DNA from: a virus
Length of the DNA: 44,597 nucleotides
Virus record (IMG/VR): IMGVR_UViG_3300031463_000548
Location: 1-44,597 of that record
Direction: 5' to 3' (one strand)
The translations under genes and the position numbers were made by a program. Each line of letters starts with the position of its first letter. Positions within the stretch are counted from its first letter, which is position 1. The notes beneath the pieces are model-generated. The model made no database searches and had not been told where the DNA came from. It saw only the letters and a list, made by a program, of their open reading frames with translations. Positions 2,995 through 44,597 of this stretch are shown here, piece by piece.

Positions 2995-3032
2995 CAAACT
3001 ACCTCCGGAGATTTTAAAATTGGATATGATAC

Positions 3033-3047: not shown

Positions 3048-3061
3048 GGATATTGGAAATA

Positions 3062-3069
3062 TTTATATA
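3062..3069 (+). promoter_or_regulatory. TATA box of the Lsm-exonuclease operon
   Basis: TTTATATA is preceded by a purine-rich GGAAATA that could act as BRE. Predicted initiation about 25 nt downstream (near 3092) leaves a short leader containing AGGTGG ahead of the ATG at 3110. Read on the other strand it is TATATAAA, so it may serve both divergent transcripts. Confidence 0.65.
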
Positions 3070-3109
3070 TCTTTGATCCATATTTGAGTTCACAATAGGT
3101 GGTCATGAG

Positions 3110-3319: not shown

Positions 3320-3888
3320 TGGAGGTTGTAATGGATATCGAAACGATCAGTGCCCCTCAGGACGTTGTTGATCAGTTCATCTCTCTTTTCTCATCGAAGA
3401 AGAAAAAGATGTCAGCACCTGCTCTTCATCCATGTACATCGAAAATAATCGTTGTAGGTTTCAAACCGATTGGAAATGATTCTGTTATATTTGTCGGTGA
3501 TGAAAGACAGGTTCTGCTAGACACGAAAAATTTTCTAGAAAAGAACAATCCGACACGGATTATTACATTCAATGGAATCGGATTTGATATACCAATGATA
3601 CGGTGGAGAGCAGCAAAAAACAGAATAACTGGATTCGGTGATCTTCTCCCATCATCAAAAAGCCCGCGAAACTACGATATATATCAAAAGATAAAGTGGG
3701 AAATGCCGATGAGCCTGGGGGAGCTGAGTATGCTGATCACTGATAAAATAAAATCCTCTACCGGAGAAATAGTTGAAGAGCTCTATAATGCCGGAAAAAT
3801 AGATGAGCTGGTAGAGTACAATAAAAGAGACCTTGAGATAACAGAAGCACTGTATCTAAATCGTAAGGATTATCTTGGTCTGGACTAA
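3319..3888 (+). CDS. DnaQ/PolB-type 3'-5' exonuclease
   Basis: This 189-aa stand-alone proofreading-type exonuclease has an RNase H-like fold. Exo I is MDIETI (D6, E8), Exo II is TFNGIGFD (N85, D90) and Exo III is the YxxxD form YNKRD (Y167, D171), so the metal-binding acidic residues are present. It resembles the PolB-exonuclease-like family (DEDDy). I start at ATG 3319, which overlaps the Lsm-like stop codon (TGATG) and has GGAGG 6 nt upstream; GTG 3316 is the longer option. The substrate could be DNA (replication repair) or RNA, given the Lsm-like partner. Its stop codon directly abuts the stop of the convergent baseplate J gene. Confidence 0.8.
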   Translation: MEVVMDIETISAPQDVVDQFISLFSSKKKKMSAPALHPCTSKIIVVGFKPIGNDSVIFVGDERQVLLDTKNFLEKNNPTRIITFNGIGFDIPMIRWRAAKNRITGFGDLLPSSKSPRNYDIYQKIKWEMPMSLGELSMLITDKIKSSTGEIVEELYNAGKIDELVEYNKRDLEITEALYLNRKDYLGLD

Positions 3889-5310: not shown

Positions 5311-5758
5311 TTGTCTCACCCATCAATTCTCTGAACGGGTCCCATATGCTATTCTTCAGGTTCATGAGCTCCTGCTCATCAAGTAGGAACTGAATTTTGC
5401 CGCTCCCTACGGTCATCTCTCCGAATATGGTGTGGTTATCCAGATATATTAGGTTCAGTGATTTTATACCAAGACCTGGAAAGTGCCATTTCAGCGATTC
5501 CTTTAATTCATTCTGAAACTCAGCCAGGTTTGCACTGGTGGACTTTTTGTGCTGATAATCATACCATGGACAGCCTATGCGCGGATCGAGACGCTCACCC
5601 TGCGGTATTCCCCAGTAAAGCAGAAAGTTCTGATTGAAGAGCTCAATATCATCCGATGTGAGCGCCAGGTCTCCATATGGTGTGATCTCCAGCTCCAGTG
5701 TGGAGTGGCACTTCACATAACCAGCATCAAACATCATATTGGTCTTGAGGTCCGGCAT
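5303..5758 (-). CDS. GPW/gp25-like baseplate wedge protein
   Basis: This 151-aa protein has the gp25/GPW pattern: a central acidic strand-rich core (LELEITPYGDLALT) and a C-terminal region of strands and helix. Its place directly upstream of J is the standard order. The start at 5758 (MPDLKT) follows GGGGTGAT by a few nt and leaves 19 nt to the spike gene; the longest frame (5830) would overlap that gene by 53 nt. It acts in baseplate assembly. Identification relies on context and length more than on a decisive motif. Confidence 0.68.
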   Translation of the reverse strand: MPDLKTNMMFDAGYVKCHSTLELEITPYGDLALTSDDIELFNQNFLLYWGIPQGERLDPRIGCPWYDYQHKKSTSANLAEFQNELKESLKWHFPGLGIKSLNLIYLDNHTIFGEMTVGSGKIQFLLDEQELMNLKNSIWDPFRELMGETNE

Positions 5759-5777: not shown

Positions 5778-6803
5778 TTAACCACAACTGCATGGTCCAT
5801 GTGTACAGCTCGATACTGTGAGGTGGCCATGAATCGTTACGTCGCTGTATATATGTACATGCGCAGCCGTGATCTCAACCACACCACTCTTGTAGATTCT
5901 CACATGCGCTCCAGTGTCTCTGTGAAGCATGTCTGCCGCGATTGTGGATGGATCCTCCGGAGCGTATACGGTAACGGATGCACCTGAGCTCTCATTATGA
6001 TCACTATGCATCTCGATTGTTCCGGTTGGATAGAAGATTATATGCCCTTTCGGCGACTCCTGTACCTTATTTTCTATATGGATCGTCCCGTCATAATCGA
6101 AATACACAATCGATCCTGTTATGTGGTGATATTTTGTTCTCCAGTTGGGGTCTATTTTGGAGTTTGTGTTTCCGGATAGCACCTTCAGGTATGTACCTGC
6201 ATCGATGTAATCCACTGTATTACAGTTTTCACATACTTCATCATGTCCCTTGTATCCATGTGGACATGTGTGCACCAGGACGCAGTCCCTGGTATCATCA
6301 AAGTACTTCATGCAAACAGGAGGATGTGATGGGAACGGATGCTCTGTCCAGTTGTATTCATTCTCCTTTGTACGTTTAGGTCGCTCCCACTTACATATCT
6401 TGCACACCATGTCATATATGGAGTCCTCATTGCTATTTGGCCGGCAGACGGGCTCCTGAAATATATTTGGCAGCGTTCCAAGTATTATCGGCAGGTTGTC
6501 ATGCAGATACAGCACAAGAACAAGATCTCCAACCCGTGGGGTCCATGGTGTGCCACATGCGTTTCCATGATATCGCTGGAGAACGAGAGCTCTCTTATAG
6601 ATTTTTATATCATTCTCGTCGTTTGGGGGTTCTCTGATATCACGTAGATGAATATCGACTACATTGAACTTCCGGTCTCCTGCTCCCATATTCCAGGCTT
6701 TTTGATGGGGATATATCTTATCCACCATGCATATCGCAGGAGCTATCGGCTTCGCCAGATATGCATCTACAAGTGATTCGGTTCCTTCTCTAACAATTGC
6801 CAT
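5778..6803 (-). CDS. Baseplate spike protein gpV-like with zinc-finger insertion
   Basis: This 341-aa protein has an N-terminal OB-fold-like domain (RVGDLVLVLYLHDNLPIILG, about 90-110) typical of gpV/gp5 spike hubs. A Cys-rich insertion follows (CKIC at 134-137, then C180, C191 and C194), probably zinc-binding. The C-terminal part is repetitive beta-helix (GHIIFYPTGTIEMH, GAHVRIYKSGVVEIT). The last residues HGHLTVSSCTHGPCSCG form a His/Cys-rich tip; known P2-type spikes hold a metal at the apex with HxH, so a metal-capped tip is likely here. The start has TAGGAG 8 nt upstream. The protein would puncture the cell envelope. Confidence 0.78.
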   Translation of the reverse strand: MAIVREGTESLVDAYLAKPIAPAICMVDKIYPHQKAWNMGAGDRKFNVVDIHLRDIREPPNDENDIKIYKRALVLQRYHGNACGTPWTPRVGDLVLVLYLHDNLPIILGTLPNIFQEPVCRPNSNEDSIYDMVCKICKWERPKRTKENEYNWTEHPFPSHPPVCMKYFDDTRDCVLVHTCPHGYKGHDEVCENCNTVDYIDAGTYLKVLSGNTNSKIDPNWRTKYHHITGSIVYFDYDGTIHIENKVQESPKGHIIFYPTGTIEMHSDHNESSGASVTVYAPEDPSTIAADMLHRDTGAHVRIYKSGVVEITAAHVHIYSDVTIHGHLTVSSCTHGPCSCG

Positions 6804-6814
6804 ATTTTTCTCTC

Positions 6815-7213
6815 CTATCGTATTATCCAGTTTGGCCAGCCATACACAATGCTACCGGCCACATATGAGCTATCCCACGGATGTACGATCCACAGATATT
6901 CAAAGTTGTCAATCGTAATCACATCCAGTTCGTACCTGGTATACACGATCGGTGTATCAGTCCTATAATCATAATAGAGATCGTATTCCCCCTGCGGCAG
7001 AAAATCGGTATATAGATATGGTTCTCCTTTGCTTTCCGCATTGAGCTTATCCAGGAGCCGCTTGAATTCATCCTTTGAGACGAAATATACGATACGATAG
7101 TTCATCTGCCGTGTGTAGCCGACGATTGCACTATCGGACATGAATACCTTCGCTCCAACCGGATTCAAAGGAGTTATATCCGTTGGAGCCTTACTACTGC
7201 TGGCTGCTGGCAT
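6815..7213 (-). CDS. Unknown tail/baseplate protein
   Basis: This 132-aa protein begins MPAASSSKAP. The start at 7213 has GGGGGT 9 nt upstream and overlaps the hub gene by 20 nt. The chain is rich in Tyr and strands (YRIVYFVSKDEFKRLLDKL, YDLYYDYRTDTPIVY). It lies between the gpD-like hub and gpV-like spike genes, a slot often used for LysM or small hub-adaptor proteins in myoviruses. I see no recognisable LysM motif, so function is left open. Confidence 0.65.
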   Translation of the reverse strand: MPAASSSKAPTDITPLNPVGAKVFMSDSAIVGYTRQMNYRIVYFVSKDEFKRLLDKLNAESKGEPYLYTDFLPQGEYDLYYDYRTDTPIVYTRYELDVITIDNFEYLWIVHPWDSSYVAGSIVYGWPNWIIR

Positions 7214-8414
7214 TACTCGACCCCCATAGCTCCTGATCATTCAGCGGCTTCAAGCCTAGCTGACATACCCATCCATCAGCGGAAAACTCAACACGCTTTG
7301 ATATGACACGTCCAGTGATCTTTATTGGACCCTGGATTATTCGGTACGTATTTCCAGGATTCATTCTCCCGATCTCTGCCAGTGTATACGACACTATGTC
7401 GGTGAGCTTCGGAGATACGCCCATGAATTCGGGATGAGCGATACCTTTGTTGACCTGCCTGCTGGTAATTACGATCTTCCTTGCCCTCTCCTCACATTTC
7501 TCCTTATCATACTGTGTAGGATCGAATATCGTTGGGCCGCTGAAGATCTTTGTACCAGGATCAATCTGTGTATGCTTGCCAAATATCCTCCTGGTATCCA
7601 TGATCTCCGAGCCGATCGCATTCGGATCCACAATTATTGGATTTCCGCCTCCCACAACAACGACATCATTCAGATATCCAATAACATTCAGACCATATGA
7701 TGGTAGCGTAACCTTCTCGGTGAAATCCCATATACGGGTTTCCATGCCAGTATTCTGTGCATCTGTGAAGTGAAAGTATGCAGTACCTGGCTGCTCTCCG
7801 GCCTCAACCCACCAGATGGCGCCGCACATATTTGCAAGGAAGTCCATTATATCTCTGTACTTCTCGTTGGTCTTGCGTATCACATTACCCATTACAAGGT
7901 CATTTTCTACCTGAATGAACCGCTTATCGAATTTGATGCCGTTTTTCTTTTCATAATCATCAAGAGTTTTGTTGACGGCATCAGATATTTTCATGCCGGT
8001 GAACACAAGCTCGTTTGAGGGGTAATCAGCACCAAGCTCGTCCTCCAGGAATGACCCCTTTATAAGGACATTGTACAGGTCATACTCGACGTACTGAACA
8101 GTGCCTCGGCATAGTGGGAATTTATCCTGATATACTCGGACAGGCTTGTCACTATTCGGTCGTGCTGTATATCCTTCATCGATCAATGCAAACCATACGA
8201 AATCAGTGACCATCCACCTGCCGGTATGCTTATGGTCGATATTAGCCAGCTTTATAGTGAACGTCTGGCCATCAGCGTTCTGCATTGATTCAAGCACCAG
8301 CTCAATCAGATCGGCATTGACCTTTTCAGGATCGTCCCTGTACGGTCTTCCTGGATCGTAATTGGCATTGCTGAGAACAGTATCTCCGATCTTTATCCAG
8401 TACTTGATTGGCAA
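7194..8414 (-). CDS. Baseplate hub protein, gpD/gp27-like
   Basis: This 406-aa protein begins with TTG at 8414 behind AGGTGAT. The chain has the hub layout: an N-terminal beta barrel that includes FTIKLANIDHKHTG, a domain with a repeated helix (ISDAVNKTLDDYEKKNG, YRDIMDFLANMCGAIWWVE), then a second barrel and a basic C-terminus (ITGRVISKRVEFS). Late control D-like proteins form the trimeric hub onto which the spike docks, and the spike gene is nearby. The call rests on position, size and pattern rather than a single diagnostic motif. Confidence 0.65.
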   Translation of the reverse strand: MPIKYWIKIGDTVLSNANYDPGRPYRDDPEKVNADLIELVLESMQNADGQTFTIKLANIDHKHTGRWMVTDFVWFALIDEGYTARPNSDKPVRVYQDKFPLCRGTVQYVEYDLYNVLIKGSFLEDELGADYPSNELVFTGMKISDAVNKTLDDYEKKNGIKFDKRFIQVENDLVMGNVIRKTNEKYRDIMDFLANMCGAIWWVEAGEQPGTAYFHFTDAQNTGMETRIWDFTEKVTLPSYGLNVIGYLNDVVVVGGGNPIIVDPNAIGSEIMDTRRIFGKHTQIDPGTKIFSGPTIFDPTQYDKEKCEERARKIVITSRQVNKGIAHPEFMGVSPKLTDIVSYTLAEIGRMNPGNTYRIIQGPIKITGRVISKRVEFSADGWVCQLGLKPLNDQELWGSSNASSQQ

Positions 8415-8422
8415 ATGATCAC

Positions 8423-8935
8423 CTACTGATTACCTGAGCTCGTATTATCGGTCGGAAGCGGCTGTGTCTCTGTCGGATATCCAGGAGTGATTCCATAGCT
8501 TTCAGCTCCTGTACCGTCGTAGCATTCAATCAGCTCGAATACCCATCTCATTACGTCCTTATTACCTGGCTCCTGGACACCACGCTTTCTCTCGATATAG
8601 CATGGGAGCGACATTCGGTCAGTGACAACCCAGTGCGGTCCAGCATTCATCTCAACAATTTTATCGCTTGTCTCCTTACGGGTAGTTGTGAACTCGATAA
8701 CCAGTCTCCACAGCCCCTCCGGCTGGGTACACTGTGTTTTTGGTTTTGGTATACAGTCATGTACTCGAATACTGAAGTCCTGTGTGTACGTAATTCTTTG
8801 TGGATTTGGATCCGGATCTATGAGGTTCTCGCCAAGTGTCAGAGTGCCGATCTTTACGGCAACGCCCCTTCCTGACGTGTTCGATCCTGAAGTATCATCA
8901 GTATTGGTATCATCGATATTGGTATCGTCTGGCAC
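8423..8935 (-). CDS. Unknown tail protein with Asp/Thr-rich N-terminus
   Basis: This 170-aa protein begins with GTG at 8935, seven nt after AGGAGG. Residues 2-20 are low-complexity repeats of DDTN type and the C-terminus is Pro/Thr/Ser-rich; between them is a beta-rich core (WRLVIEFTTTRKET, HWVVTDRMSLPCYIERKRG, MRWVFELIECYDG). It sits between tape measure and hub, where initiator or LysM-type tail proteins usually lie. The family is not recognised. Confidence 0.65.
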   Translation of the reverse strand: MPDDTNIDDTNTDDTSGSNTSGRGVAVKIGTLTLGENLIDPDPNPQRITYTQDFSIRVHDCIPKPKTQCTQPEGLWRLVIEFTTTRKETSDKIVEMNAGPHWVVTDRMSLPCYIERKRGVQEPGNKDVMRWVFELIECYDGTGAESYGITPGYPTETQPLPTDNTSSGNQ

Positions 8936-14086: not shown

Positions 14087-15703
14087 TTACTCTTTCGGCA
14101 GTACTCCGACGCCGAACACGACCCTCACGCGCTCAATGTGTCCGATGTTCTGTACCAGCAGCTCGACATCAACGCGGTTGACATCTATCTCGTTCGGCAT
14201 CACCTCAACGTGATACCTCTCCACGTTGCCGAGTATGACCTGCTCATCAAGAATACCCTCAATGGAGGCCTTGAGCGCAGTCAGAACCTCTGGAGTCCTC
14301 CTCTGGTGGTAGAACTGTTTACAGACATAATCCAGTGCGGTGATTATCCAGTTGATTGTTCTGTTATCAACGCACCTCATGAACTGCCAGTCGGTTGCTG
14401 TCGTAATACTGACATACGGCTTTATACCACGCTGCTTCATGAATACGTTAATACCGCCGCGCGTGAGTGCGTCCATCTCGTCCTGGTTGAATGTGACCAG
14501 AAGGTCTCTTACACCATTTAGAGAGTTCATAGCAAGAGCAGTCGACTCGCCCAGCGCAACTGCCGCCTCCTTAGCAGCATGAGCAACCGCGAGGTTCTTT
14601 CTCGGATTCGACTGATCCCATCCGTTGCCCTCTATGACAAGGAGACGATTATTGTATCCAGCCGCCAGATCGAGCAGATTCGCAACAGACTCGTTCTCTC
14701 TGGCAGACACGAAACCTATACATGGCTGGAACCTGTTTGCCATCCAGGTGACGAATCCATCCAGAACCGGAATCAGGTCGTAAGACGATGGCTCGACTTC
14801 GTAGCTGGTTATGGCAACGGTCGTGGGCGCAATTGTATTGCCGAGAAGGTACAGCGCCTCCTCCCAATCATCGGTGACGATCTCCTGTCCATCACTACCG
14901 TCCTCAAGAGCAAATGTGCTGTTGGCGGGTAGGTGCAGCGCGCCAGCCTTCGGCACGAAGTTTGCCAGTGCGCTTGTTCTCAGCCTGGCCTGGAGATCAA
15001 TGAGATCACGTATGTTGCGGTATGTCTCAGTCATCTCGTTATCTGTGAGAGTGACTGTTCTGGTCATGTACTTGACATAAACAGAAATCGTCTGCGCTGT
15101 TGTTGGTTCCTCGCCCTCATAGAATGTAATTGTACCGTTTACCTTATCAACATATACCTTGCCCTCTCCGAGATCGCCTGAATTGTATACAATCGTTCTC
15201 GGAATACCATTGACCTTGACATAGTTTCTCGGAGACTCGATAATATCACAAACCTTCAGGGCATACGGGCCGGCGGTACCATCTCCAGCGAATATTTCAA
15301 CATCGGTTGCCTTGAATTCACCATCCTCGATGGTGATTATAACCGAGTTACCCCATATACCTTCGCTGGCAGCGTAAAATGTACCTACTTCACTCGGTGT
15401 AGTGGCGCCATCCTTAACCTTCTTGCTTGCCTTCTTGTTCCCCTTACCAAGCACACGAACAGCATAAATCACAGGACAACCCTGCTGGAATGCGAGCTCA
15501 ATTGCCTCCTTGAGATCGCCACTGTGGTAAAGCCTGGTACCGGTGGATGGCATCCCTATCGGGACTGCCTCAGATGTTGGACCTCTGTTCGATGTCCCGA
15601 CGAGGCCGCATATCCCCTGGCCGATTATTATAGGGACTGGGCCAATCGCCCTGAGCTCAATAACGAGCCCAACAAAAGCATTCTTATTTCCGTATACTGG
15701 CAT
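14087..15703 (-). CDS. Contractile tail sheath protein
   Basis: This 538-aa sheath subunit shows the family N-terminus (VPIIIGQGICGLVGTSNRGP), DLKEAIELAFQQGCPVIYAV and a C-terminal domain (IGHIERVRVVFGVG) that strand-swaps between neighbours in known sheaths. Its presence defines a myovirus-type contractile tail. The ATG overlaps the stop of a 59-aa gene (TAATG) and has GGTGAT 5 nt upstream. It is followed by the tube gene after 15 nt, with no hairpin between, so sheath and tube are co-transcribed. Confidence 0.92.
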   Translation of the reverse strand: MPVYGNKNAFVGLVIELRAIGPVPIIIGQGICGLVGTSNRGPTSEAVPIGMPSTGTRLYHSGDLKEAIELAFQQGCPVIYAVRVLGKGNKKASKKVKDGATTPSEVGTFYAASEGIWGNSVIITIEDGEFKATDVEIFAGDGTAGPYALKVCDIIESPRNYVKVNGIPRTIVYNSGDLGEGKVYVDKVNGTITFYEGEEPTTAQTISVYVKYMTRTVTLTDNEMTETYRNIRDLIDLQARLRTSALANFVPKAGALHLPANSTFALEDGSDGQEIVTDDWEEALYLLGNTIAPTTVAITSYEVEPSSYDLIPVLDGFVTWMANRFQPCIGFVSARENESVANLLDLAAGYNNRLLVIEGNGWDQSNPRKNLAVAHAAKEAAVALGESTALAMNSLNGVRDLLVTFNQDEMDALTRGGINVFMKQRGIKPYVSITTATDWQFMRCVDNRTINWIITALDYVCKQFYHQRRTPEVLTALKASIEGILDEQVILGNVERYHVEVMPNEIDVNRVDVELLVQNIGHIERVRVVFGVGVLPKE

Positions 15704-16473: not shown

Positions 16474-18432
16474 TCACCCACCGTATTCAATATCCTTTCT
16501 GGAATCGAACACATCATACCTGAGCATCTTCGACCACAGTTCGAATATCTGCGGAATTACTCTCTCGAACTCGACCACGGCCTTGTCAAACATGTTCTCA
16601 ACAATTATCACATTCGCACCGAATTCGCTGTTAACTGGCTTCAGAGAATAGAAATCACTGTAAAGCACCTTTCCAAGCTCTGTTCTGCATAAATAATCAA
16701 CAGGATACTCGAATCCAAGTGCCTTTACCAACAGTGAATCGTGAGGCAATTCCTGGATAAACGTCTTTCTGGAATAGAAACGCTCTTTATATGTCGAATT
16801 GAATGCCTTCGATAATAACAATTTATCAGTGAATCCAAATTTATGTGTGCGCTGCATGTACGCACGAATCGGATATGTGCCAACAAATGTCTTCCGTGAA
16901 TAAAATTTATTATTTATATTAAATTCAAGCGTCTTTTGCAGCCACGCATCCATCTCGCCATACTTGAAATCGATCGTACCAACCGACATCATATCAGATG
17001 CATATTCTGAATCGAATGCCTTCTGCAAGTACTCTCGCATAGCCATTGATTTGGCACGAGTAACTCCGATTGAAGCACGGCTGGTAAATGATTTCTGTAA
17101 GGCCTTTCTGAGCCACGCATCCAAATACTGTATGACATTTATGCGATCCTTTCTAATCAGCAGATCAGTAACGAACGACTTGGTGCGTTTTTCCCAGTTT
17201 TTCAGATAAACATCAGCATCGAATGTCATCATAACTTCTTTCTTGTACCATTCTGCGTGAACATCATATGTATACCATATATCATTACCACACCATGTCG
17301 CATGTCGTGTATATTTAACATTGAATGTTATATAGTATGGATTACGTGCTGGATATGATGATAGATCCTTAGCATCATATACCTCCACCCATGCATCGAG
17401 TGTGGTCGGAGTTGATCCTCCGCTAATTTCTCCTGTGATATCTATACCATATACTGAAAACTCACTGATATTCATATCCTGCCAGGTAATCCCACCATCC
17501 AGGCTGTACTTCAGTGATGGTTCGTAAGCGTTTCGCTGGGTATTGAACCGCATCTGTGAGGAGAATACCATTGACTCAATATTTGGCGTACCTACTCTCT
17601 GGATAATATGAGTAGCGAGCTGACCATTCTCATATCCTGAGAATGGTTGATCAAATTTTGCAACACCTAGCTTGAATGGATCCGATATATAGTAATGCCG
17701 GACAATTCCAAGATTCTTAAAATATACCCGCATCATATATCTTGGATAAAAGTTATAATCAATATAATCCAAACGAGTTAAAATTATTTGTAATATCCGC
17801 ACATCATTTCTATTCCAGATATTATAATTTTCATAATGTGCTGTGCGTTCATTCCAGGTATTCCCTTCGTCATTTGATACAAAAAGCCTACCACCAACAG
17901 CAGCCAATACCTGCCTACCAAAACCATCGATAGCTGGATATGAATCGTTATCCCAGGAAGGATTTAAAACTGTATACCAGTTTCTTCCACGATTAGTTGA
18001 TTTCCATACCTTTCTCCCATCATGTGCGAGTAATGTATCGTTTCCAACATTCACTATTGCACGGCATCCTGGAGCATCAGATGATATTTTGTACCAGTTC
18101 GTACCAGAGTTTGTTGACTCATACCACCCATCCGACGCGCTGCATAGCATCCATCCTGGATCAACCCTGAGAACATTATATAAAACGCTTGGAGCATTGT
18201 ATACCAGTCTCCATGTCCTGCCATAATCTCGGCTCTGGTAGATCGCATACGCATTCGTTGTCAGCCGGACAATCGCCACATAGTATGTACCATACGCCCA
18301 GTCATAATCAACCACATCCGCAACATCGCCTGGGAGTGGCTCTGATACCCACCACTCCTTGAAATTCTGGACATCAAACGTCCCGACAAAGCGAGGTTCA
18401 TTGGGTAATCGAGTTAATACAACTGGTCGCAT
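16474..18432 (-). CDS. Asp-box (BNR) propeller protein with fibre repeats
   Basis: In this 652-aa protein residues 60-200 carry at least four Asp-box motifs of type SxDxGxTW (SRDYGRTW, STNSGTNW, STNRGRNW, SNDEGNTW) and a fifth lies near 310 (SLDGGITW), so the N-terminal half is probably a beta-propeller as in BNR proteins. No sialidase catalytic set is evident. From about 400 the chain changes to short repeats (LQKAFDSEYASDMM, LLSKAFNSTYKERFYSRK) of the family that fills the giant fibre at 40551-44597. It likely acts in host recognition on the baseplate. GGTGA is 4 nt from the ATG, and the next gene upstream ends at the same base. Confidence 0.72.
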   Translation of the reverse strand: MRPVVLTRLPNEPRFVGTFDVQNFKEWWVSEPLPGDVADVVDYDWAYGTYYVAIVRLTTNAYAIYQSRDYGRTWRLVYNAPSVLYNVLRVDPGWMLCSASDGWYESTNSGTNWYKISSDAPGCRAIVNVGNDTLLAHDGRKVWKSTNRGRNWYTVLNPSWDNDSYPAIDGFGRQVLAAVGGRLFVSNDEGNTWNERTAHYENYNIWNRNDVRILQIILTRLDYIDYNFYPRYMMRVYFKNLGIVRHYYISDPFKLGVAKFDQPFSGYENGQLATHIIQRVGTPNIESMVFSSQMRFNTQRNAYEPSLKYSLDGGITWQDMNISEFSVYGIDITGEISGGSTPTTLDAWVEVYDAKDLSSYPARNPYYITFNVKYTRHATWCGNDIWYTYDVHAEWYKKEVMMTFDADVYLKNWEKRTKSFVTDLLIRKDRINVIQYLDAWLRKALQKSFTSRASIGVTRAKSMAMREYLQKAFDSEYASDMMSVGTIDFKYGEMDAWLQKTLEFNINNKFYSRKTFVGTYPIRAYMQRTHKFGFTDKLLLSKAFNSTYKERFYSRKTFIQELPHDSLLVKALGFEYPVDYLCRTELGKVLYSDFYSLKPVNSEFGANVIIVENMFDKAVVEFERVIPQIFELWSKMLRYDVFDSRKDIEYGG

Positions 18433-20330
18433 TATTTCACCAGGGTGACACTAAAGCTGCATGACGATTCATTTCCTTTTATAAATGTGGTCCATAACCA
18501 CATCTCTCGTATCCAGGATACCGAAACATAGCTCCGCATAGCAATTGATCTAGCTATAGTTCTTCGAGTAATTACATCAAATGGATAATCATATCTCATG
18601 AACGGATATGATATAAGTAAATCAGCATCATATATGCGCTTTTTAGTAGATGCGATACCCGCTCTGAACAGATATCCTCTATGCAGAACGAATTTCAGCT
18701 TCGCGTCGACGCGATAGCTGCGTAAAAGTATTCCCCATATAGACACATTAACAATATAATTCTTATTAAAAACCAGTGCAGTTAGAGCGCTTGCACCATA
18801 TGTTTTTAAAAACGTATCCAGAAGAAACACATCGGTATCAAAATCACATCTCCCAGTCCCAGCCGGACCATATCCCATCGTGTAATCCGCCAGGCCGAAA
18901 TATATCTTCCAGTCAACTCCAGCCGCCAGAGTCCTCCGGAGAGCGTATTCAACCAGAGATTGGTTCTCCATCACGAACCGAATTGCATCAACGTCCTTCC
19001 ATCGTATATACACCTTACCTGGCTCGTAAATGGATATTTCAGTGCTGCCCACCTTTCCAGCAATCTCGTCAAGAACCCGCTGACATGTTTCCTTCGTTCC
19101 AGAGCCTACCTGAGAAAGCACATACGTCTTCAGTCGCTTTCGGTATTGAACATCGTCCTCATCTGTAAATCTCGGTAGATTGTACAGCTTTCCCCACTTT
19201 GTATCCAGCTCATCTCCGGTCGAATAATCTATCTTGTGCGCCAGATCAAGCGTTACCAGCCTGGTGCGCACGTCTGCAATTTGATAAGCAAGCAACTTTA
19301 CCAGAGTGCTTACAACCGGCCTGGCACCAGGCAGAATTCTGAGCTTCAGGTTCGCCCCGTAATTTGCCTCATATTTTACGAGCTTTGATATGCTCATCCG
19401 GTATGGGATCCGGTCCTTCTCAGGATATGCTATAAATGCACCGCTGGAAAACCCCTTGGAGAACTGCTTCTGTGTCAGAAAATCTACTGGATAAGCACGA
19501 CTATCGATATAAAATATCTCTACTGTATCCAGGCATCCATATACTCGTGCACCGCCGATCGATATCGCATTTGCAGAATTACCATCTCCTGCCAGCTCAG
19601 CCCTGGCCAGAAGCATCGAGGATTCGGCAGTGAAAACGTCTCCTGTGTATACTTCAGTATCACCATAAAAGTTCCCGCTCAGATCCGACCCGCCGAATGC
19701 GATCATGTTATTGTACATGCCGCCAGCAGCCAGAGATATCCTGGCTACAAGCATGGTCGGACCATTGACCCAGGCCTCTCCATTATAGAGTACTGTGCTG
19801 TTCAGCACAGAAGACCCATTGAATCCACCAAGGCATACTGAGCTAGTTGATGGCAATCCCACAGCAGCGCCCATCTCACGCGGCTGTGGTAGAGATGGTA
19901 TGGCTGACCAGCTACTACCATTAAACTTCTCGGCTGTATAGAGGATATCCGCACCGCCGGAACCACCAGCAGCAAAAGCGTTTGTAATCCTGCCGTATCC
20001 CATATGATACGATCTGGAATACAGCATATTACCAGCCGACTCCCATGAGGTACCATTGAACTTCTCAGTCGAGCTGAGCCGACCACCAGATGACGACACA
20101 CCACCGTATACTATCGCGTCGGTCAGATCTCCACCGGCATGATATGCACGGGGTGTTATCAGAGGAGCAGAAGTGGACCACGTGGTTCCGTTATACACAA
20201 ACGTGCTGCCACTTATAATTGAAGTATTATCAATACCACCGGTTACACGAGCTCCAGTCCGATTTCCTCCTCCGACTGCACCTTTACGTGCCGATGGTAT
20301 ACTGGGAGCGGATGCCCATACGCCGACCAT
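18432..20330 (-). CDS. Kelch-like propeller fused to gpI/baseplate-type domain
   Basis: In this 632-aa protein residues 1-270 hold about six Kelch-like units (GGxxxSG, EKFNGTSWESAG, VLYNGEAWVNGP), so a beta-propeller is expected. Residues about 290-480 carry a baseplate anchor resembling tail protein I-type domains (YSTGDELDTKWGKLYNLPR, YRKRLKTYVLSQVGSGTK). The C-terminal 150 residues contain copies of the short fibre repeat (YDADLLISYPFMRYDYPFDV). The architecture suggests a receptor-binding wedge that links propeller and fibre parts to the baseplate. GAGGT precedes the ATG by 6 nt. Confidence 0.75.
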   Translation of the reverse strand: MVGVWASAPSIPSARKGAVGGGNRTGARVTGGIDNTSIISGSTFVYNGTTWSTSAPLITPRAYHAGGDLTDAIVYGGVSSSGGRLSSTEKFNGTSWESAGNMLYSRSYHMGYGRITNAFAAGGSGGADILYTAEKFNGSSWSAIPSLPQPREMGAAVGLPSTSSVCLGGFNGSSVLNSTVLYNGEAWVNGPTMLVARISLAAGGMYNNMIAFGGSDLSGNFYGDTEVYTGDVFTAESSMLLARAELAGDGNSANAISIGGARVYGCLDTVEIFYIDSRAYPVDFLTQKQFSKGFSSGAFIAYPEKDRIPYRMSISKLVKYEANYGANLKLRILPGARPVVSTLVKLLAYQIADVRTRLVTLDLAHKIDYSTGDELDTKWGKLYNLPRFTDEDDVQYRKRLKTYVLSQVGSGTKETCQRVLDEIAGKVGSTEISIYEPGKVYIRWKDVDAIRFVMENQSLVEYALRRTLAAGVDWKIYFGLADYTMGYGPAGTGRCDFDTDVFLLDTFLKTYGASALTALVFNKNYIVNVSIWGILLRSYRVDAKLKFVLHRGYLFRAGIASTKKRIYDADLLISYPFMRYDYPFDVITRRTIARSIAMRSYVSVSWIREMWLWTTFIKGNESSCSFSVTLVK

Positions 20331-22300: not shown

Positions 22301-22327
22301 TAGGAAAATGCTGAACGCATTTTCCTA
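22301..22327 (-). terminator. Hairpin overlapping the stop codon of the 22325-22900 gene
   Basis: A perfect 11-bp inverted repeat (TAGGAAAATGC with GCATTTTCCTA) and 5-nt loop begins at the stop codon itself. On the minus strand it is followed by TTTCCTTTTTAGG. It should act as a partial terminator or mRNA-stabilising end. The hairpin includes the TAG stop, which may also influence termination of translation. Confidence 0.68.
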
Positions 22328-22900
22328 AATCTCATCGTATCTGAACGTAAACGTCTCGTTCGGCTTGTCGCCCTGAGTGGCATCAGGCGCAATCTTTATC
22401 TGAGTCACAACGCTCTTGGAGCCGAATGCTGCGGTGTACGTGCTGGTATCAACCACCAGCGGGTTGGCGGATGTATAGTTATCCGCATCGACCGCAGGCG
22501 TGCTCTGGCTCTTATAGTACAGATGACCGTTCGAGGAATCCCCAATATAGTATCCTGTAGTACCCTGGACACCAGTGGCCTGAGCATAGTTTGCCTCTGG
22601 ACAGCCGTTATCGCCAGAATCCCTCTTGCCGACAAGCAGCATTCCACCAGTGCCGAGCTGCCAGTTGGTCTTAACGTTGCCAGATGTAAACCACCTGATG
22701 TTCGTTATTCTGGTGAATGAGCCGGAGGCATACATCCTGTGATGCTTCCAGTAGCTGTAATTGAATCCAGACGAAGGAACTACGCAAACATAGTTATCTC
22801 CTGGGTTGTATGTATCGGCTGTACAATATCTGCCCTGTGTAATTGTAGTCCAAGTGACTGTTGAACCATTACCTTCCTGAATAACAACAGTTGCCGTCAT
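22325..22900 (-). CDS. Unknown beta-rich, probably abundant virion protein
   Basis: This 191-aa protein is rich in Gly, Ser, Thr, Tyr and Asn and has alternating strand patterns (TVTWTTITQGRYCTADTY, GGMLLVGKRDSGDNG, VVTQIKIAPDATQG). Such composition suits an exposed virion protein. A strong 3' hairpin like that behind the capsid and tube genes implies high expression. GAGGTGAT precedes ATG by 6 nt and the end of the upstream gene overlaps by 4 nt. It lies in the neck region. The family is not recognised; decoration, neck whisker or a second tube-like protein are options. Confidence 0.68.
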   Translation of the reverse strand: MTATVVIQEGNGSTVTWTTITQGRYCTADTYNPGDNYVCVVPSSGFNYSYWKHHRMYASGSFTRITNIRWFTSGNVKTNWQLGTGGMLLVGKRDSGDNGCPEANYAQATGVQGTTGYYIGDSSNGHLYYKSQSTPAVDADNYTSANPLVVDTSTYTAAFGSKSVVTQIKIAPDATQGDKPNETFTFRYDEI

Positions 22901-29571: not shown

Positions 29572-29800
29572 CAAACACCTCCTGTGACATCCTCCCCCGA
29601 ATGAATTCGGGGGCATCCTAGCGTGGGATGGCAGCTTTCGCCGCAGGTTAGCCAGCATTCCCCGGATGACCCGGATCATCACCTTGGCCTTAAGGGGTGT
29701 CACGCTCCCCTTTCTCTCAGAGACGTGCCCCGAGAGCATCGAGCGCTTTAGCGGCGATATTCAACGCTCCAACCCTGTCGGCATCTGACTGGTAGCCGCA
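29565..29800 (-). ncRNA. Predicted omega/reRNA at the tnpB right end
   Basis: In known TnpB systems the guide RNA scaffold covers the tnpB 3' end and the element's right end, and the guide is the adjacent flank. Here the 132 non-coding bases after the stop contain short stems (GATGA/TCATC, CCCCCGAA/TTCGGGGG). The guide would start AGGAGGTGTTTG, the ribosome binding site of the phosphoesterase gene. The limits are approximate and inferred. Confidence 0.4.
29594..29613 (-). repeat. Right-end hairpin of the IS element
   Basis: CCCCCGAA and TTCGGGGG form an 8-bp stem with a 4-nt loop. It matches the imperfect palindrome normally recognised by TnpA at the right end and forms part of the predicted guide RNA scaffold. 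Confidence 0.75.
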
Positions 29801-30841
29801 TCTTGTGCATTTGAACCAGCCCTGAGTCTTGCGGTTGTAGCGGGAAACATTCCTGCACCGCGGACAGGTTTTGGAAGTCTCCTTGGGGTCGACGTAGATT
29901 ACGGGCACCCCGGCAAGGGCGGCCTTGTATCCGATGAATGAAGCCAGCTCCCGAAAGTTCCAACCCGACATCATGCGGTTGAACTTCTTGGAGCCTTTGG
30001 CCCGTTCACGAATACCCAGCAGGTTCTCCAGGGCAATGGCTTTACCTTCAGCTTTTGCTATTTTCACAATACGTTTGGAAATACAGTGGTTGATATACCG
30101 CATCCATCTTTGTTCACGACCCGATTCCTTCTTGACGCGGGAAAGCCTGCCTGCTTGCTGAAGTGCTTTACGCCGCTCTGCCCAACGTTCTTTTCGCCAC
30201 CTCACCTGTCGTCCGTCGAAGAATACGTTGTTGGACAATACAGCAAGTTTTACGATGCCGAAGTCGACCCCGATTACGCCGCACGGCTCGTTGAGACATG
30301 TTTCGTAGACGAGGGATATGGCTGCGTACCACTCGCCGCTTTTGTCTCGCCATATCTCCACAGACCCTTGACGGCAGGAACCTCCTGCCAGATCCTGGAG
30401 CCTTTTGGCGTGGTATGTGGAAGCGGCAAGGGGTACGGCTATCTGGCTCCTACCGGAGGAAACGGGGAATTTGATGACCCACGTGCCGGAGGGAAGTTGG
30501 TGGAGGGAGTAGCAGTCCTGCCGCACCATTACCGGAACCGTTTTCTCAAATTTGGGCAGGCTGGCCTTTTTGCCCCTTTGTTTGCGGGAAAGGTAGGAGC
30601 GCCTGACGGACAGCGCTTTGAGCATGGCGCACTGGAGCGTGGCCCGGTTAAGATCGAACAGTTCACATGCCTGTCGGTAGGTTTCGCGGTTTAGGTATGC
30701 CCGACTAGTGGTGCCAAGTGTTACGGCCTGCTCTAGAAACCAGCAGCATGCCTGATGATAGGTCTCCAGCATGCGGCTCATTTTGTCTCGCTTACCCTTG
30801 TTGGGCGGCAGGAGTTTTACCTTGAGGGTTACCACCTGCAT
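29717..30841 (-). CDS. tnpB: TnpB RNA-guided nuclease (IS605 family)
   Basis: From ATG 30841 the protein is 374 aa, the ordinary length; GGAGG lies 8 nt upstream. The RuvC catalytic set is complete: GVDFG (D193), ALENLLG (E272) and DADRVGALNI (D355). The zinc ribbon CPRC/CTRC (C326, C329, C345, C348) is intact. TnpB proteins cut DNA guided by an RNA made from the element's right end, and help retain the element at its site. It appears functional. It interrupts the viral operon between propeller genes and the phosphoesterase, in the same direction. Confidence 0.92.
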   Translation of the reverse strand: MQVVTLKVKLLPPNKGKRDKMSRMLETYHQACCWFLEQAVTLGTTSRAYLNRETYRQACELFDLNRATLQCAMLKALSVRRSYLSRKQRGKKASLPKFEKTVPVMVRQDCYSLHQLPSGTWVIKFPVSSGRSQIAVPLAASTYHAKRLQDLAGGSCRQGSVEIWRDKSGEWYAAISLVYETCLNEPCGVIGVDFGIVKLAVLSNNVFFDGRQVRWRKERWAERRKALQQAGRLSRVKKESGREQRWMRYINHCISKRIVKIAKAEGKAIALENLLGIRERAKGSKKFNRMMSGWNFRELASFIGYKAALAGVPVIYVDPKETSKTCPRCRNVSRYNRKTQGWFKCTRCGYQSDADRVGALNIAAKALDALGARL

Positions 30842-30899
30842 CGACATTTCCTCCGGTCTGCTTAAATTGTCTCCACTGTAGTATAATACCGCCATTCAT

Positions 30900-37989: not shown

Positions 37990-39435
37990 TCACACAATTG
38001 ACCATTTACTACTACCAATGCTCACAGACCAGCGACCCTTCGTGAATATCGGTACCCGAACGACATCAATACGCTCAGACCGAATATACCGCTGCAAGCA
38101 CATGACAAGCGTTGAAAGAGCATCCGGACCGTCATCGTGTGAATGCCCAGGAAATGCCTTCAACTGATTGATGAGCTCTGGATACTTGAACCTGTAGTCA
38201 TCCCTGAACACAATCTGACCATTGCTGTAGAACGGTTCAATAGCTCGAATACGATCGGCCTTCTTGATCGTATTCCACACGAGCTCATATGGGAGAACTA
38301 CCCCATACATTGTCTGCCGGCGACGAAGCTCAGTCTCGAACAGAGACTCACCAGGGGCAGACTTTGCATGTCCGAGCGAGTTTGCCTCAACCCAGACCTT
38401 CGTGAAATTATATATCGAATGAAGCGCAAGAAGCTTGTTGATTGTGCTGCTCAAAGTACCCCGATTTATATCACAGTCATACACCAGCCATCTGCCATCT
38501 GACATTACTCCGATTATAACGATTGCTGTATAGTCGTCTCCTCCCTCAGACGGATCACATGCAGCAAAAAACTTAAGCTCCTCCTTCGGTACAGGCGGTA
38601 CCAGATGCGGATCTGACGTGAACATGCTGCCACTTATGGATACATCCCAGCGACCATTCATTAACTGCTCACGTGTGACATGATCAAGCTGGTTCAGAGC
38701 AGCAACATATCCCTCCTGATCGATAAACGGATTGTCGAACAGCCTGGCAGGAACAAATATCGGACCGTTCTCAATAGGTTCGGTTGCAATTGGAAATCTC
38801 CGCAGCACCCAATCGTTTCCGACACCGCCTGGGTTTGTAGCTGCGCGCATCCTGATCGGAACAGGAAATGTTTTCAGCCGGCGAAGCCTGGAGAACATAT
38901 ATAGATAACGATCCTCTGGAAACTGTGTCAGCTCGTCCATTCCTACAAACTGAAACTCCGACGACTGATACCGGTATTTATCGTTCTCTGTTTCAAGATA
39001 TCCGAACGTCAACGTGGCGCCTGAAGGGAACTTCCAGGTCTTGTCCGTTTCCGACCACTTCGCATCAGTATCTGCTAACCACTGCGCCGCGCGGTCCATC
39101 AGCGCGCCGGCTAGAGCCAGATCTGAATACGTTCGCCTCAGCAGCAGCGCACGGTATCCTGGTACCATTGCATACTGCAATGCGGCCATAAGAAGACAGT
39201 CAGACTTGCCCCCTCCAGCCGCGCCTCCATAAAGGGCCTCCATACCCTCGTATGCAAGGAACCTACGCTGCTGGAGAAACGGTATATGTGGTATGTATGG
39301 GTTTTCCCATATCGTTTTCTGAAGGACCGCCATCCCCCTGTAGCCGATCGTTTCCACCTCCTCCGGTGTCAGAACCTGCATCAGGGGGGGCCAGTCCTCG
39401 TGCACGGATTTCGTTGAACTTCCTTTCATACTCAA
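37990..39435 (-). CDS. terL: Terminase large subunit
   Basis: This 481-aa packaging motor and nuclease has Walker A GGAAGGGKS (70-78), Walker B FQFVGMDEL (D167, E168) and a coupling TNPGG. The RNase H-like nuclease shows CDPSEGGDD (D294 and following), VWVEAN (E350) and DGPDALSTLV near the end. The full-length frame overlaps terS by 173 nt; starts at 39429 or at ATG 39381 (MQVLTPEE) are alternatives, none with a strong ribosome binding site. Together with TerS and portal it packages the genome. Confidence 0.92.
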   Translation of the reverse strand: MSMKGSSTKSVHEDWPPLMQVLTPEEVETIGYRGMAVLQKTIWENPYIPHIPFLQQRRFLAYEGMEALYGGAAGGGKSDCLLMAALQYAMVPGYRALLLRRTYSDLALAGALMDRAAQWLADTDAKWSETDKTWKFPSGATLTFGYLETENDKYRYQSSEFQFVGMDELTQFPEDRYLYMFSRLRRLKTFPVPIRMRAATNPGGVGNDWVLRRFPIATEPIENGPIFVPARLFDNPFIDQEGYVAALNQLDHVTREQLMNGRWDVSISGSMFTSDPHLVPPVPKEELKFFAACDPSEGGDDYTAIVIIGVMSDGRWLVYDCDINRGTLSSTINKLLALHSIYNFTKVWVEANSLGHAKSAPGESLFETELRRRQTMYGVVLPYELVWNTIKKADRIRAIEPFYSNGQIVFRDDYRFKYPELINQLKAFPGHSHDDGPDALSTLVMCLQRYIRSERIDVVRVPIFTKGRWSVSIGSSKWSIV

Positions 39436-40242: not shown

Positions 40243-40542
40243 CTACAAAAATTCACCCTCAGGTAATACGGCGACCCTCAGCGGCGTGCCTGGTGCCGAT
40301 CTACCATCAGAGAATGTTATATATGGCCATATCCGCCAGACGCCGATCTCATCCAGGGTCTCAGATGAGTTGACATCATAGTATATCACACCATTTACAG
40401 GATCCTCTATATTCGCAACCCATTCACCCTGCGCTCCGGATGGTTTTCTAAAGCGAATCGCTACTGAGGTGGCATCAGAGATATCTGCATCCATTGCCAC
40501 TCTAAAGCGCAGTGCACTCTGATGTTGATATACTACTATCAT
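40243..40542 (-). CDS. Small beta-domain protein, BppU-like
   Basis: This 99-aa single beta domain has the pattern SVAIRFRKPSGAQGEWVA, VNGVIYYDV and GVWRIWPYITFSDG, similar to the small immunoglobulin-like N-terminal domain of baseplate upper proteins. The start at ATG 40542 follows GGGGG by 5 nt; it lies 8 nt after the giant fibre stop. It could be a fibre adaptor or virion surface protein. Confidence 0.65.
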   Translation of the reverse strand: MIVVYQHQSALRFRVAMDADISDATSVAIRFRKPSGAQGEWVANIEDPVNGVIYYDVNSSETLDEIGVWRIWPYITFSDGRSAPGTPLRVAVLPEGEFL

Positions 40543-40550
40543 AAAACCCC

Positions 40551-43500
40551 CTATGGCCACATGCCATCAAATTCTGCTTTACTGTTACGAATCAATTTTG
40601 AATCAGCATTGACCGTGATGAATGCATCAAATTCTGCTTTACTGTTACGAATCAATTTTGAATCAGCATTGACCGTGATGAATGCCCTGGATTTATACGG
40701 TGCCATGCTGGTTTGAATCCGGCTCTTTCCTCTGACGGCAACAGTGTACTTTCTGAAACGAGCTATGTTATTATATCTGCTATCAAATATATTGGATATA
40801 TATGTATCATATATAACTGATTTTTGATATTTTACAAGCAAATATGTAAATATATCATATGATGTATCGATAGTCTTATCAAGCATCGCTCCAAAATCGT
40901 AAGATGAAGTGAACATCTTTTCAATTAAAACTGATTTATAATACGACAGTGATTGAGTCCCCTCCAGAAGCATATCGAAATCATATTCAACATCAATTGA
41001 ATCTCTCCTCAAAAGCATATCGGATGGCAATGACTTATCAAAAACACGCTTGATAACTGTATCAGCATCATACACCGCATCCTGGATAATTTTGATTAAT
41101 GCAATCATCTGATCATATACTTCGCGAATTATTTTTATCGTGCTGAGTGTGGGATTACTACAGTCAAATCCCTTCTGGAGCAGCATTTTACTGGCGACAT
41201 CCACAGGTATGTCTTTCCGTATAAGGAGCATATCAATACTGGATTCGACCTCCTGTATACGTTTAATAGTCGCATTAATCGATGAGCTCATCTCGAACAT
41301 CTTCTCCACAAGAGCATCAATACTGAAGGATATATCAGGAACGATTTTCAGCGTGCCAGCCGCAACATAGCTCTTCGGAACATCTCTGATCTCAATATAT
41401 GCCCCAAGCCCAAGCATGGCTTCGAGAATGATCTTTACTGAACTGCTCAGTGCCATGGATATATCAAACGAGATTTGCAGCAGCATGTCTAGATCATGCT
41501 CAGCCGCAAATGTAGTCTCGATAAGAGAATCAATATGACCGCTGCGATCAACATTGCGCAGCTCGACCAGTGCATCGGACTCAGCACTTCTACTCAGCTC
41601 CTTAATTGCATACAGATGCGAATCGTAATCACGTTCAAACTCCTTCTGGAGGTACATGTCGTGCACATAATCGGCGCATATGCCAAAGCGAATAAGGAGC
41701 ATATCTACAGCGTGCAGTATATCCTGAATACGCTTTACAGTATTATTAAATGCTGAATAAGCATCCAGACTTTTAAGCATAAATACATCAATATCTGCAT
41801 TGGAATGGAATGTGCGCTCCAAAACCATATCGAGATCGAAACCAACATCGATCCCCAGCCGGTTGAGCAACATGTCCAGCTCGGCAGACGCTTTATTGAT
41901 GGCCTTCAGGACAGTATCGGATGATTCAAGCAAATCATATGCTTTGCGCTGAAGCAGGTTGATATCATATGATGCATCGAAGATGTGCTTAATGGATACA
42001 ATCGAATTGTATATATGCGGAATACCTCTCTTTTCTATTACTGTCTTATATATATAATCGATGTCAAATGTCTTGAGGAGATATTCACTCGAAGTGAATG
42101 AGCTATCGAATACCTTTAATACATATGCATGTGTAAACGCACTTATATCGATGTTAAATCTCTTTATTAAAGAATTTATATTCAATGTACGATCACGTAT
42201 CCATTTTATGGTAGTATAAAGACTGATCAGGCGATCAAATTCCTTCTGAGTGATGATATTCGCATTATATGTATCAGTAAATGATGTCTGAAGTAGCAGA
42301 TCTTCGTCATAAGATGTACCAATATCGAGGCGATTGACCAGGACATCGAATACCGCCTGAGAATGCCGACGAAGGGCTAGCTGCAATTTGGACTCGTATA
42401 TGGCACGGAGCAGCATCTCGATATAAATATTGCCAGTAGCTATATCGAGCACAGTACCAGAGAGACTGAACGGAGGCCGTGTCCAGATCCTGGTGCTGAT
42501 GGCAAACGGCGCTGTGAAGGATGCCTGGAATACTGCGGACGAACCGTATGGGGAATGATAAATGTTCTTCAGAGTGGTCTGTGCATCAAATTCTTTATTA
42601 ATATCGTACCTGATCAGCAATGACTTGATACTGCTGGAAATATCCTGAATGAGCTTTATCGATCCAATTATTCCAGCATACTCGTCAAATTCCTTCTGTA
42701 CCAGTGCATTACCATCATATTGTATACCAAATTCCTTCTCCAGGGCCAGGTCGATATCATAGCCAGCAGCAATATCGAACCTGTTTATCAGGCTGTCCAA
42801 TTCAAGATACCGGTCAAACACCTTCTGTAGCAGAATATTGCTATCATACTCCGAGCTAAATGCTCTCTTCAAGATCAGATCGATACTGAAGATAGTATCG
42901 ATATCGAGCCTGTTTATCAGGCTGCCTATCGCCAGGTACTGGTCATACTTCTTCTGCAATAAGAGATCATTATCGTAGTCAGCATCATAGGCTCTTTCTA
43001 AAATGAGATCTGAATCGGATCTAGTATCAAATGTTGTTTGTAAGAAATGACCTAGATTATATAAAACGTCTATATCGTCCCGCCTGATCAGTGAATTTAC
43101 ATACGCACTTATATATCTTCTATAAACTAGCTGCCAATCTATCGCATATTCTCTCCGCAGCATCATCTCAAGAATCAGATCGCCGGTGGAAATGTTGAGG
43201 TAATCTCCAGATAACCTGAATGGGGCGCGAGTCCAGATTCTTGTACCGATCGCGAATGGCGCATCATACGCCCTCAATAAATATGTGTCAATACCCCCAC
43301 TTAAATCAAATGTTGTTTCTATAAACACACCGCCCAGGAGCTCAACATCAATATCCAGGCGGTTAATTAAGGTATCAATATCATAGGAGATCTCTCCAAT
43401 ACGCTTTATGGTAGAATATGCATCAATAATCCCATCGAACGCTTTTTGAGTAATTATATCCATATCATATGATATATTGATATCCAGTCGAAGCAATAGA

Positions 43501-44597
43501 AGGTCTGCGAAATAATCTATATATCTCCAATGCACAAGCGTCCAGTTGATATTATATGCCATACGGAGCAGGAGTTCTGCATACATATCACCCTCAGATA
43601 TTAAGAGCTCGCTTCCAGAAATGCTGATGGGTGGACGAGTCCAGATCCTGATTGCGTTCCCATATAGTCCATCGTATGAACGCTGGTTAAGTGCATTCTG
43701 AATATAGGTGCAATCAAACATCCTGCTTAATAATATATCAGATACAAATTCGTATAATTTTGTATCCTGTAATAATATATTATTAATATATGTTAAATTC
43801 TTAGCTGCCTGGATTAGCGAATTCAATGATATATCTTTTTTAAATGTTTTGCTTGTAATTACATCATTATCTACATATTTATTAAATTCCTTTATAGCAA
43901 GTGCATCTACTGAAGGTAACTCATGTGATAGGGTCTTCTGTATCAGTATATTATCAACATATGTTAAATTATTGATGAGCTTTATTGTTGCATTTGATGT
44001 TGAGCTCGTATTAAATGTCTTACTAATAACAACATCATCAACTTTCGATGCGCCAAGTGTTTTTTTAACAAGTACGTCCACTGGATAGGTACAGGTTCGC
44101 GTATTCCATGCAGATTGCTCTGTGTTCAGATATGCTGGAATCAGGTTCACGTAAGGGGGAACGTGACTGGCGGAGTCTAGCGTAATGGTTATAGTATGCG
44201 TATGAGATGGTGGTACGAATGTTGAATTTCCTGTTTTATTTGATAGCGAACCGCCATAACTGCTCGATGTGCCCGAATATGAATGTGTATGTGTATTACT
44301 TCCAGAAGTCGCTGGATTTGTATCGTTAGCTCCTAAAATCGCATCATTCCACCCCGTTATTACCGTCCACTCTGAAGTAGGAGCCCCATCGAAAAAGCAA
44401 ACAACATTGACAGGAGTATAGATAACATCATTTTTAGCACGATAAAACCGAGTATATACAGAGTATGGTAGCAACGTACCATCATTGGAGTTTCCTGAAT
44501 ATGTATGAGTATGACTACCACCTCCAGCAATTGTGGTTCCGGAGCCGCCATCAGATAAATATGAGCTACCACCACTAAGCGACCCTGAGACAGAATG
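40551..44597 (-). CDS. Giant repeat fibre protein, N-terminus beyond the window
   Basis: The frame is open to the last base, so the 1349 codons seen here are partial; the TTG at 44474 is internal. The N-terminal part seen carries HTHTYSG and SHTHTI motifs of tail-fibre collar type. From about residue 165 to 1300 it is built of 14-15-residue repeats (consensus FDxxYDxDxLLxK, as in YDSNILLQKVFDRYLELDSL), with roughly 75 copies. Three longer modules start IWTRPPFSLSG. The end has two identical 20-residue units. It is a fibre or tail appendage for host binding; related repeats occur in the Kelch and Asp-box proteins. Confidence 0.78.
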   Translation of the reverse strand, partial: HSVSGSLSGGSSYLSDGGSGTTIAGGGSHTHTYSGNSNDGTLLPYSVYTRFYRAKNDVIYTPVNVVCFFDGAPTSEWTVITGWNDAILGANDTNPATSGSNTHTHSYSGTSSSYGGSLSNKTGNSTFVPPSHTHTITITLDSASHVPPYVNLIPAYLNTEQSAWNTRTCTYPVDVLVKKTLGASKVDDVVISKTFNTSSTSNATIKLINNLTYVDNILIQKTLSHELPSVDALAIKEFNKYVDNDVITSKTFKKDISLNSLIQAAKNLTYINNILLQDTKLYEFVSDILLSRMFDCTYIQNALNQRSYDGLYGNAIRIWTRPPISISGSELLISEGDMYAELLLRMAYNINWTLVHWRYIDYFADLLLLRLDINISYDMDIITQKAFDGIIDAYSTIKRIGEISYDIDTLINRLDIDVELLGGVFIETTFDLSGGIDTYLLRAYDAPFAIGTRIWTRAPFRLSGDYLNISTGDLILEMMLRREYAIDWQLVYRRYISAYVNSLIRRDDIDVLYNLGHFLQTTFDTRSDSDLILERAYDADYDNDLLLQKKYDQYLAIGSLINRLDIDTIFSIDLILKRAFSSEYDSNILLQKVFDRYLELDSLINRFDIAAGYDIDLALEKEFGIQYDGNALVQKEFDEYAGIIGSIKLIQDISSSIKSLLIRYDINKEFDAQTTLKNIYHSPYGSSAVFQASFTAPFAISTRIWTRPPFSLSGTVLDIATGNIYIEMLLRAIYESKLQLALRRHSQAVFDVLVNRLDIGTSYDEDLLLQTSFTDTYNANIITQKEFDRLISLYTTIKWIRDRTLNINSLIKRFNIDISAFTHAYVLKVFDSSFTSSEYLLKTFDIDYIYKTVIEKRGIPHIYNSIVSIKHIFDASYDINLLQRKAYDLLESSDTVLKAINKASAELDMLLNRLGIDVGFDLDMVLERTFHSNADIDVFMLKSLDAYSAFNNTVKRIQDILHAVDMLLIRFGICADYVHDMYLQKEFERDYDSHLYAIKELSRSAESDALVELRNVDRSGHIDSLIETTFAAEHDLDMLLQISFDISMALSSSVKIILEAMLGLGAYIEIRDVPKSYVAAGTLKIVPDISFSIDALVEKMFEMSSSINATIKRIQEVESSIDMLLIRKDIPVDVASKMLLQKGFDCSNPTLSTIKIIREVYDQMIALIKIIQDAVYDADTVIKRVFDKSLPSDMLLRRDSIDVEYDFDMLLEGTQSLSYYKSVLIEKMFTSSYDFGAMLDKTIDTSYDIFTYLLVKYQKSVIYDTYISNIFDSRYNNIARFRKYTVAVRGKSRIQTSMAPYKSRAFITVNADSKLIRNSKAEFDAFITVNADSKLIRNSKAEFDGMWP
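40565..40685 (-). repeat. Perfect 60-bp tandem duplication in the fibre 3' end
   Basis: Bases 40565-40625 recur without change at 40625-40685. Each copy encodes the 20 residues AFITVNADSKLIRNSKAEFD. The absence of any mismatch indicates a very recent duplication (or an assembly artefact). Confidence 0.9.
40690..44090 (-). repeat. Degenerate 42-45-bp coding repeats
   Basis: The 14-15-residue protein repeats of the giant fibre are reflected in DNA as imperfect units rich in ATCGATATC-like and TTCAAAT words; neighbouring units are rarely identical. The variation shows old repeats, in contrast to the perfect duplication at the 3' end. Confidence 0.6.

Follow-up and report, generated by a model that had tools for sequence, protein, structure and literature searches.

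The giant open reading frame (ORF) that closes the window, here meaning the whole 44,597-base stretch of viral DNA analyzed (the single IMG/VR contig IMGVR_UViG_3300031463_000548), probably encodes a long tail fiber or baseplate appendage of a dsDNA virus with a contractile tail and, most likely, an archaeal host; in this protein a long array of short repeats would form an extended, β-rich stalk. A rough probability of 0.7 is attached to this reading. What is established is the repeat itself, how widely it occurs, its association with adhesin-like and baseplate domains, and the synteny of the tail genes; the location on the virion, the stalk shape, the β structure, the orientation and the host are inferred. 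The fiber belongs, as a strongly diverged member, to an unnamed viral repeat family that is widespread, and its gene appears to be a real, N-terminally truncated tail-appendage gene. Long fibers built from repeats determine at what distance and in what way a virus reaches its host, and to our knowledge almost no such fiber of an uncultured archaeal virus is understood. The features of the window that bear on this reading are as follows.

40551-44597, minus strand: giant fiber ORF, 1,348 aa (1,348 codons without a stop), 5′-truncated and open at the contig end
44085-44597, minus strand: N-terminal HxH collar-like modules of the fiber, residues 1 to ~170, placed by HxH positions and homology to the related proteins L021 and L020
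40740-44088, minus strand: repeat array of ~70-75 units of 14/15 residues, residues ~170-1285, placed by autocorrelation and register searches
40565-40684, minus strand: exact 60-nt tandem duplication (20 aa, FITVNADSKLIRNSKAEFDA) at the fiber C-terminus, the 3′ end of the gene
40243-40560, minus strand: 105-aa ORF that overlaps the fiber stop by 10 nt
37990-39435, minus strand: terminase large subunit (phrog_979, E = 1.3e-70; 36-37% identity to psiM100/psiM2)
18432-20330, minus strand: kelch-like N-terminus, baseplate domain (phrog_1160) and degenerate repeats (repeat profile, E = 1e-4)
16474-18432, minus strand: BNR/Asp-box-like propeller protein with degenerate repeat copies in its C-terminal third (repeat profile, E = 2.9e-8)
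14087-15703, minus strand: tail sheath (phrog_279, E = 8.1e-25; 49% identity to the G002 contig)
3889-5319, minus strand: baseplate wedge subunit (phrog_6, E = 2.8e-45)

The initial annotation had described a run of units from about residue 165 of the fiber, and this was borne out by an array that extends from residue ~170 to ~1285 with a regularity far beyond chance. In a BLOSUM62 self-autocorrelation from residue 166, compared with 60 shuffles, z reached 9.6 at lag 14, 11.2 at lag 43 and 12.4 at lag 57, so the periodicity is kept on self-alignment, and longer lags also stood out (z = 7.3 at lag 100 and 9.6 at lag 250). A register search returned 70 units, with 46 spacings of 14 residues and 18 of 15, and an independent chain search returned 72 (38 and 19, respectively), compared with chains of at most three linked units in five shuffled copies of the fiber. 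The earlier count of roughly 75 units is thus a fair one, a few more being hidden in three longer inserts (RIWTRPPF.LSG…) at residues ~317, 453 and 703; the RIWTRPP insert used as a query gave no match. Both unit lengths that had been proposed are present, but they form a mix of about 2:1 (14 to 15) rather than alternating. The array has super-periods of 43 (14+14+15) and 57 residues, which shows that groups of three and of four units have a common ancestry.

The consensus first put forward, [KR]x[FY]DxxYxxDxLLxx, holds as a majority form only, with Asp in 50%, Tyr in 38% and Leu in 45-47% of units. Mean pairwise identity between units is just 16% in protein and 35% in DNA, in agreement with the view that the repeats are old and diverged at the nucleotide level, the exact 60-nt tandem duplication being the exception. 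Identity this low, with the second codon position the best conserved (0.417, 0.291 expected), indicates old duplication of units under selection acting on the protein.

No named family was found to account for the repeat, as the initial annotation had supposed: searches of Pfam, PHROGs and NCBIfam gave no match above cut-off and none that was credible, repeat profiles had no convincing chain match among PDB sequences, and Foldseek of the repeat models against PDB folds returned nothing at E ≤ 0.001, solved β-solenoids included, the query model of the relative L022 being of low confidence (pLDDT 56). No name, solved structure or experimental study of the repeat or its core peptide was found in the open-access literature, and the whole fiber, used as a single-protein query, had no match in viral contigs or phage records. 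In IMG/VR, it took degenerate patterns spanning two or three units to bring the family to light. A repeat profile built from 41 four-unit segments, rows from the window and its relatives included, matched arrays on 21 other IMG/VR contigs and on one contig of a Patescibacteria metagenome-assembled genome (MAG; L040); as the patterns accept exact matches alone, these are minimum carrier counts. One IMG/VR member is identical in sequence to L048, a contig in an Archaeoglobi MAG. The suggestion of a singular unknown is not supported, the same repeat being widespread in viral tail proteins.

The family (L020-L030 except L028, L040, and L075-L087 except L081) has the form [K]-[TS]-[FY]-x-x-D-x-[LI]-L-x-K, with KTFTxDALLKK in the arrays of the cleaner relatives, and unit spacings of 13-16 residues. 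The window array likewise consists of tandem units, with spacings mostly of 14/15 residues, and the giant fiber agrees with the family in unit register and in the conserved aromatic, Asp, Leu, Leu and Lys positions, although its units are far more diverged (Asp 50% versus 86%; Leu at position +6, 45% versus 71%). The repeat profile matches both the window and the family, as a profile that itself contains window rows; independently of it, the repeat region of the window BNR protein matched L025 (E = 4.7e-16) and L022 (E = 2.7e-10) by BLASTP. Two loci, L028 and L081, were set aside as chance pattern matches, and 24 pattern matches on genome contigs (Flavobacterium, Bacillus and others) mostly proved not to be repeat arrays by profile, L040 and L048 alone being so. 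Among 295 genomes of the phylum of the Archaeoglobi genome and 287 of that of the Patescibacteria genome, only the seed genome matched in each case; with two matches in about 580 genomes, the repeat is rare in the cellular genomes of these two phyla and mainly viral. The repeat is absent from relatives of the window virus identified by their terminase. A 5.1-kb contig (L002, 3300013755) whose terminase is 97% identical to that of the window is too short to hold the fiber.

The main argument for a stalk is the recurrent order, read by eye from domain architecture, of an adhesin-like head followed by the array and sometimes by a virion anchor. In relatives the array usually lies behind an adhesin-like N-terminal domain (HxH collar modules, BNR propeller or LamG), and the window fiber has the same layout, with HxH modules homologous to those of L020 and L021. 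In these two proteins a single chain runs from HxH modules through repeats to a baseplate domain (phrog_1160/phrog_6277-like) and then to further repeats. The contig of L026 encodes a 2,050-aa protein with BNR propellers, repeats and a C-terminal part resembling a tail hub, as well as a 1,030-aa protein with LamG, DUF2341 and repeats, and further viruses have the array behind BNR propellers, LamG with DUF2341 or other β-rich domains. Arrays thus come after adhesin-type heads and, in a subset of the proteins, ahead of a virion anchor, although the repeats that also follow the baseplate domain in L020 and L021 count against a simple order of head, stalk and anchor. Two of these loci show further peculiarities. 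The repeat genes of L020 are split over several frames (2408-4940 and 6674-8826; 390 + 293 + 252 aa and 645 + 78 aa), as in a decayed provirus or through sequencing errors, with cellular-type genes (ABC transporter ATPase) from position 11519, and the array of L023 (12171-14375) has a higher-order period of ~101 residues, or seven units, a block duplication.

In the proposed arrangement, the N-terminal HxH modules would serve as a folding, oligomerizing or binding head, and the ~70-75 units as an extended β-rich stalk that keeps this head away from the virion. Per unit there would be about one short strand (F/Y-x-x-D-x-L-L) plus a polar loop, the loops tolerating spacings of 13-16 residues, and the array could vary in length and sequence as units or blocks are duplicated and diverge. 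The window fiber carries HxH motifs at residues 29, 103 and 132, in a Gly/Ser/Thr-rich region that ends in PPYVNLIPAYLNT, and its N-terminus is 38% identical to L021 (E = 1e-26) and 34% to L020 (E = 2e-24). As its first residue aligns with residue 168 of L021, the fiber by this alignment lacks at least ~167 N-terminal residues, a stretch that takes in one whole HxH module, the first, and half of the next. The 105-aa ORF downstream is probably translated in one unit with the fiber gene; a search for its function gave only a non-significant BppU_N match (E = 0.28).

The nearest relatives of the window virus are G002 (IMGVR_UViG_3300006094_000039, 86 kb), which is the contig of L021, and G001. 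G002 shares with the window its sheath (49% identity), baseplate wedge (38%), BNR protein (39%) and a 191-aa tail-region protein (67%), the last of which is 51% identical in G001, likewise a contig with tail genes in common with the window. One protein of G002 (L069:3997-7335), complete at 1,112 aa, has the layout of the window fiber, a long 14/15 array after three HxH modules. Its third module is 43% identical to the window over 136 aa, and the protein can tentatively be regarded as an ortholog. It differs in its shorter array, in a C-terminal region that lacks the 20-aa duplication, and in the position of its gene between capsid-region and tail genes. The domain architecture, this architecture-matched complete relative and the tail-gene synteny together uphold the original description of a giant fiber-like protein; the missing N-terminus and the position of the window gene, beside the terminase instead of inside the tail block, are counted against the appendage reading.

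Sheath, wedge and tape-measure genes lie on the same contig as the fiber, a tail-module context that favors an appendage of a contractile-tailed virus. Two further window proteins carry the repeat: the kelch-like baseplate protein (phrog_1160, E = 2.7e-9), which is 30% identical to L021 over 305 aa (E = 3.5e-31), and the BNR protein, whose BNR-type matches fall below cut-off and whose propeller is 39% identical to the G002 contig. An archaeal host is reasonably likely. The nearest named relatives are methanogen viruses: the terminase comes closest to those of psiM100 and psiM2 of Methanothermobacter, although it has matches in 1,598 records, and vir525 (BK063673.1), a virus of Methanosarcinales, is the one phage record matched by the sheath and by the 191-aa protein. 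In addition, one family member lies on the Archaeoglobi MAG contig. The tail module of vir525 resembles that of the window in its sheath (38%), its tail-region protein (40%) and the order of its BNR-like and phrog_1160 baseplate genes, but the repeat shows in it no more than weakly (E = 8e-4), and no giant array was seen in the 40 kb read. The 191-aa protein (22325-22900, minus strand), which is also 52% identical in G007, is conserved in the carriers compared and is a possible marker of the tail module. A phrog_506-type transposase lies in the capsid-portal region of the window (29717-30895, minus strand), and the vir525 tail module holds a transposase of the same PHROG. In vir525, a relative of the window virus, a reverse transcriptase gene (phrog_1423) lies next to one for a tail protein (phrog_11262) at L074 28310-30760 (BK063673.1 38309-40759), a pair that looks like a diversity-generating retroelement.

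The fold of the array is where other readings have to be weighed. Hydrophobic residues occupy unit positions 0, 2, 4, 5 and 6 and polar ones positions 1, 3, 7 and 8, a pattern that fits one short β-strand and one polar loop per unit. An AlphaFold2 model of the cleaner relative L022 has ten regular strands of 7-10 residues, one per unit (pLDDT 56, pTM 0.49), although this regularity may partly come from the repeats in the alignment and the model is to be taken as a hint. The corresponding model of a window segment is helical and uninformative (pLDDT 44); this, the modest scores of the L022 model and the lack of a Foldseek match count against a stalk. With models of such low confidence, the solenoid or shaft of regular pitch that the initial annotation suggested is a conjecture. 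An α-helical or coiled-coil array of 14-residue, two-heptad units would account for the helices and for a hydrophobicity spectrum slightly raised at 100 degrees (1.22), but at 170-180 degrees the values (1.20-1.35) match or exceed this one, the frequent 15-residue units would break the heptad register, and the low confidence of the window model and the all-β prediction for L022 likewise speak against helices, which are highly improbable. A trimeric triple β-spiral shaft of the adenovirus/reovirus kind, with ~15-residue units and a Gly/Pro turn, draws on the unit length, the long shaft and the alternating hydrophobic positions, yet is also quite improbable, given that Gly and Pro together make up at most 9% at every unit position, in the window and its relatives alike, and that PDB chains offered the profiles no convincing match.

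The repeats could instead be docking elements, such that the arrays of the fiber, BNR and baseplate proteins of one virus zip together on a common β scaffold. Three window proteins and several of G001 and G002 bear the same repeat, and in L020 and L021 it flanks the baseplate domain on both sides, as docking would allow; array lengths within one virus, however, range from a few degenerate units to ~70, which pairing would not predict, and docking is considered unlikely. The extended β-rich stalk is the preferred reading. A bolder proposal, tentative and on balance doubtful, is that the 14/15 unit is an undescribed β fold used on the tails of many archaeal and bacterial viruses, either as an interchangeable stalk for unrelated heads (HxH, propeller or LamG) or as an appendage-docking device.

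A single simple repeat that the domain libraries searched do not contain connects tail appendages with different adhesin heads on at least 22 contigs; it could mark receptor-binding proteins in uncultured viruses by sequence and is a defined target for structural work. Two known systems invite comparison. Triple β-spiral shafts of adenovirus and reovirus fibers are built from units of ~15 residues, and the window array resembles them in having such a unit in a fiber shaft but lacks their conserved Gly/Pro turn and any sequence match to them. The tips of T4-type long tail fibers contain HxH motifs; although the window modules had no match in PDB or Pfam, are N-terminal and bear two HxH motifs ~30 residues apart per module, they resemble T4-type tips in that a Gly/Ser/Thr-rich part of a tail protein bears several HxH motifs.
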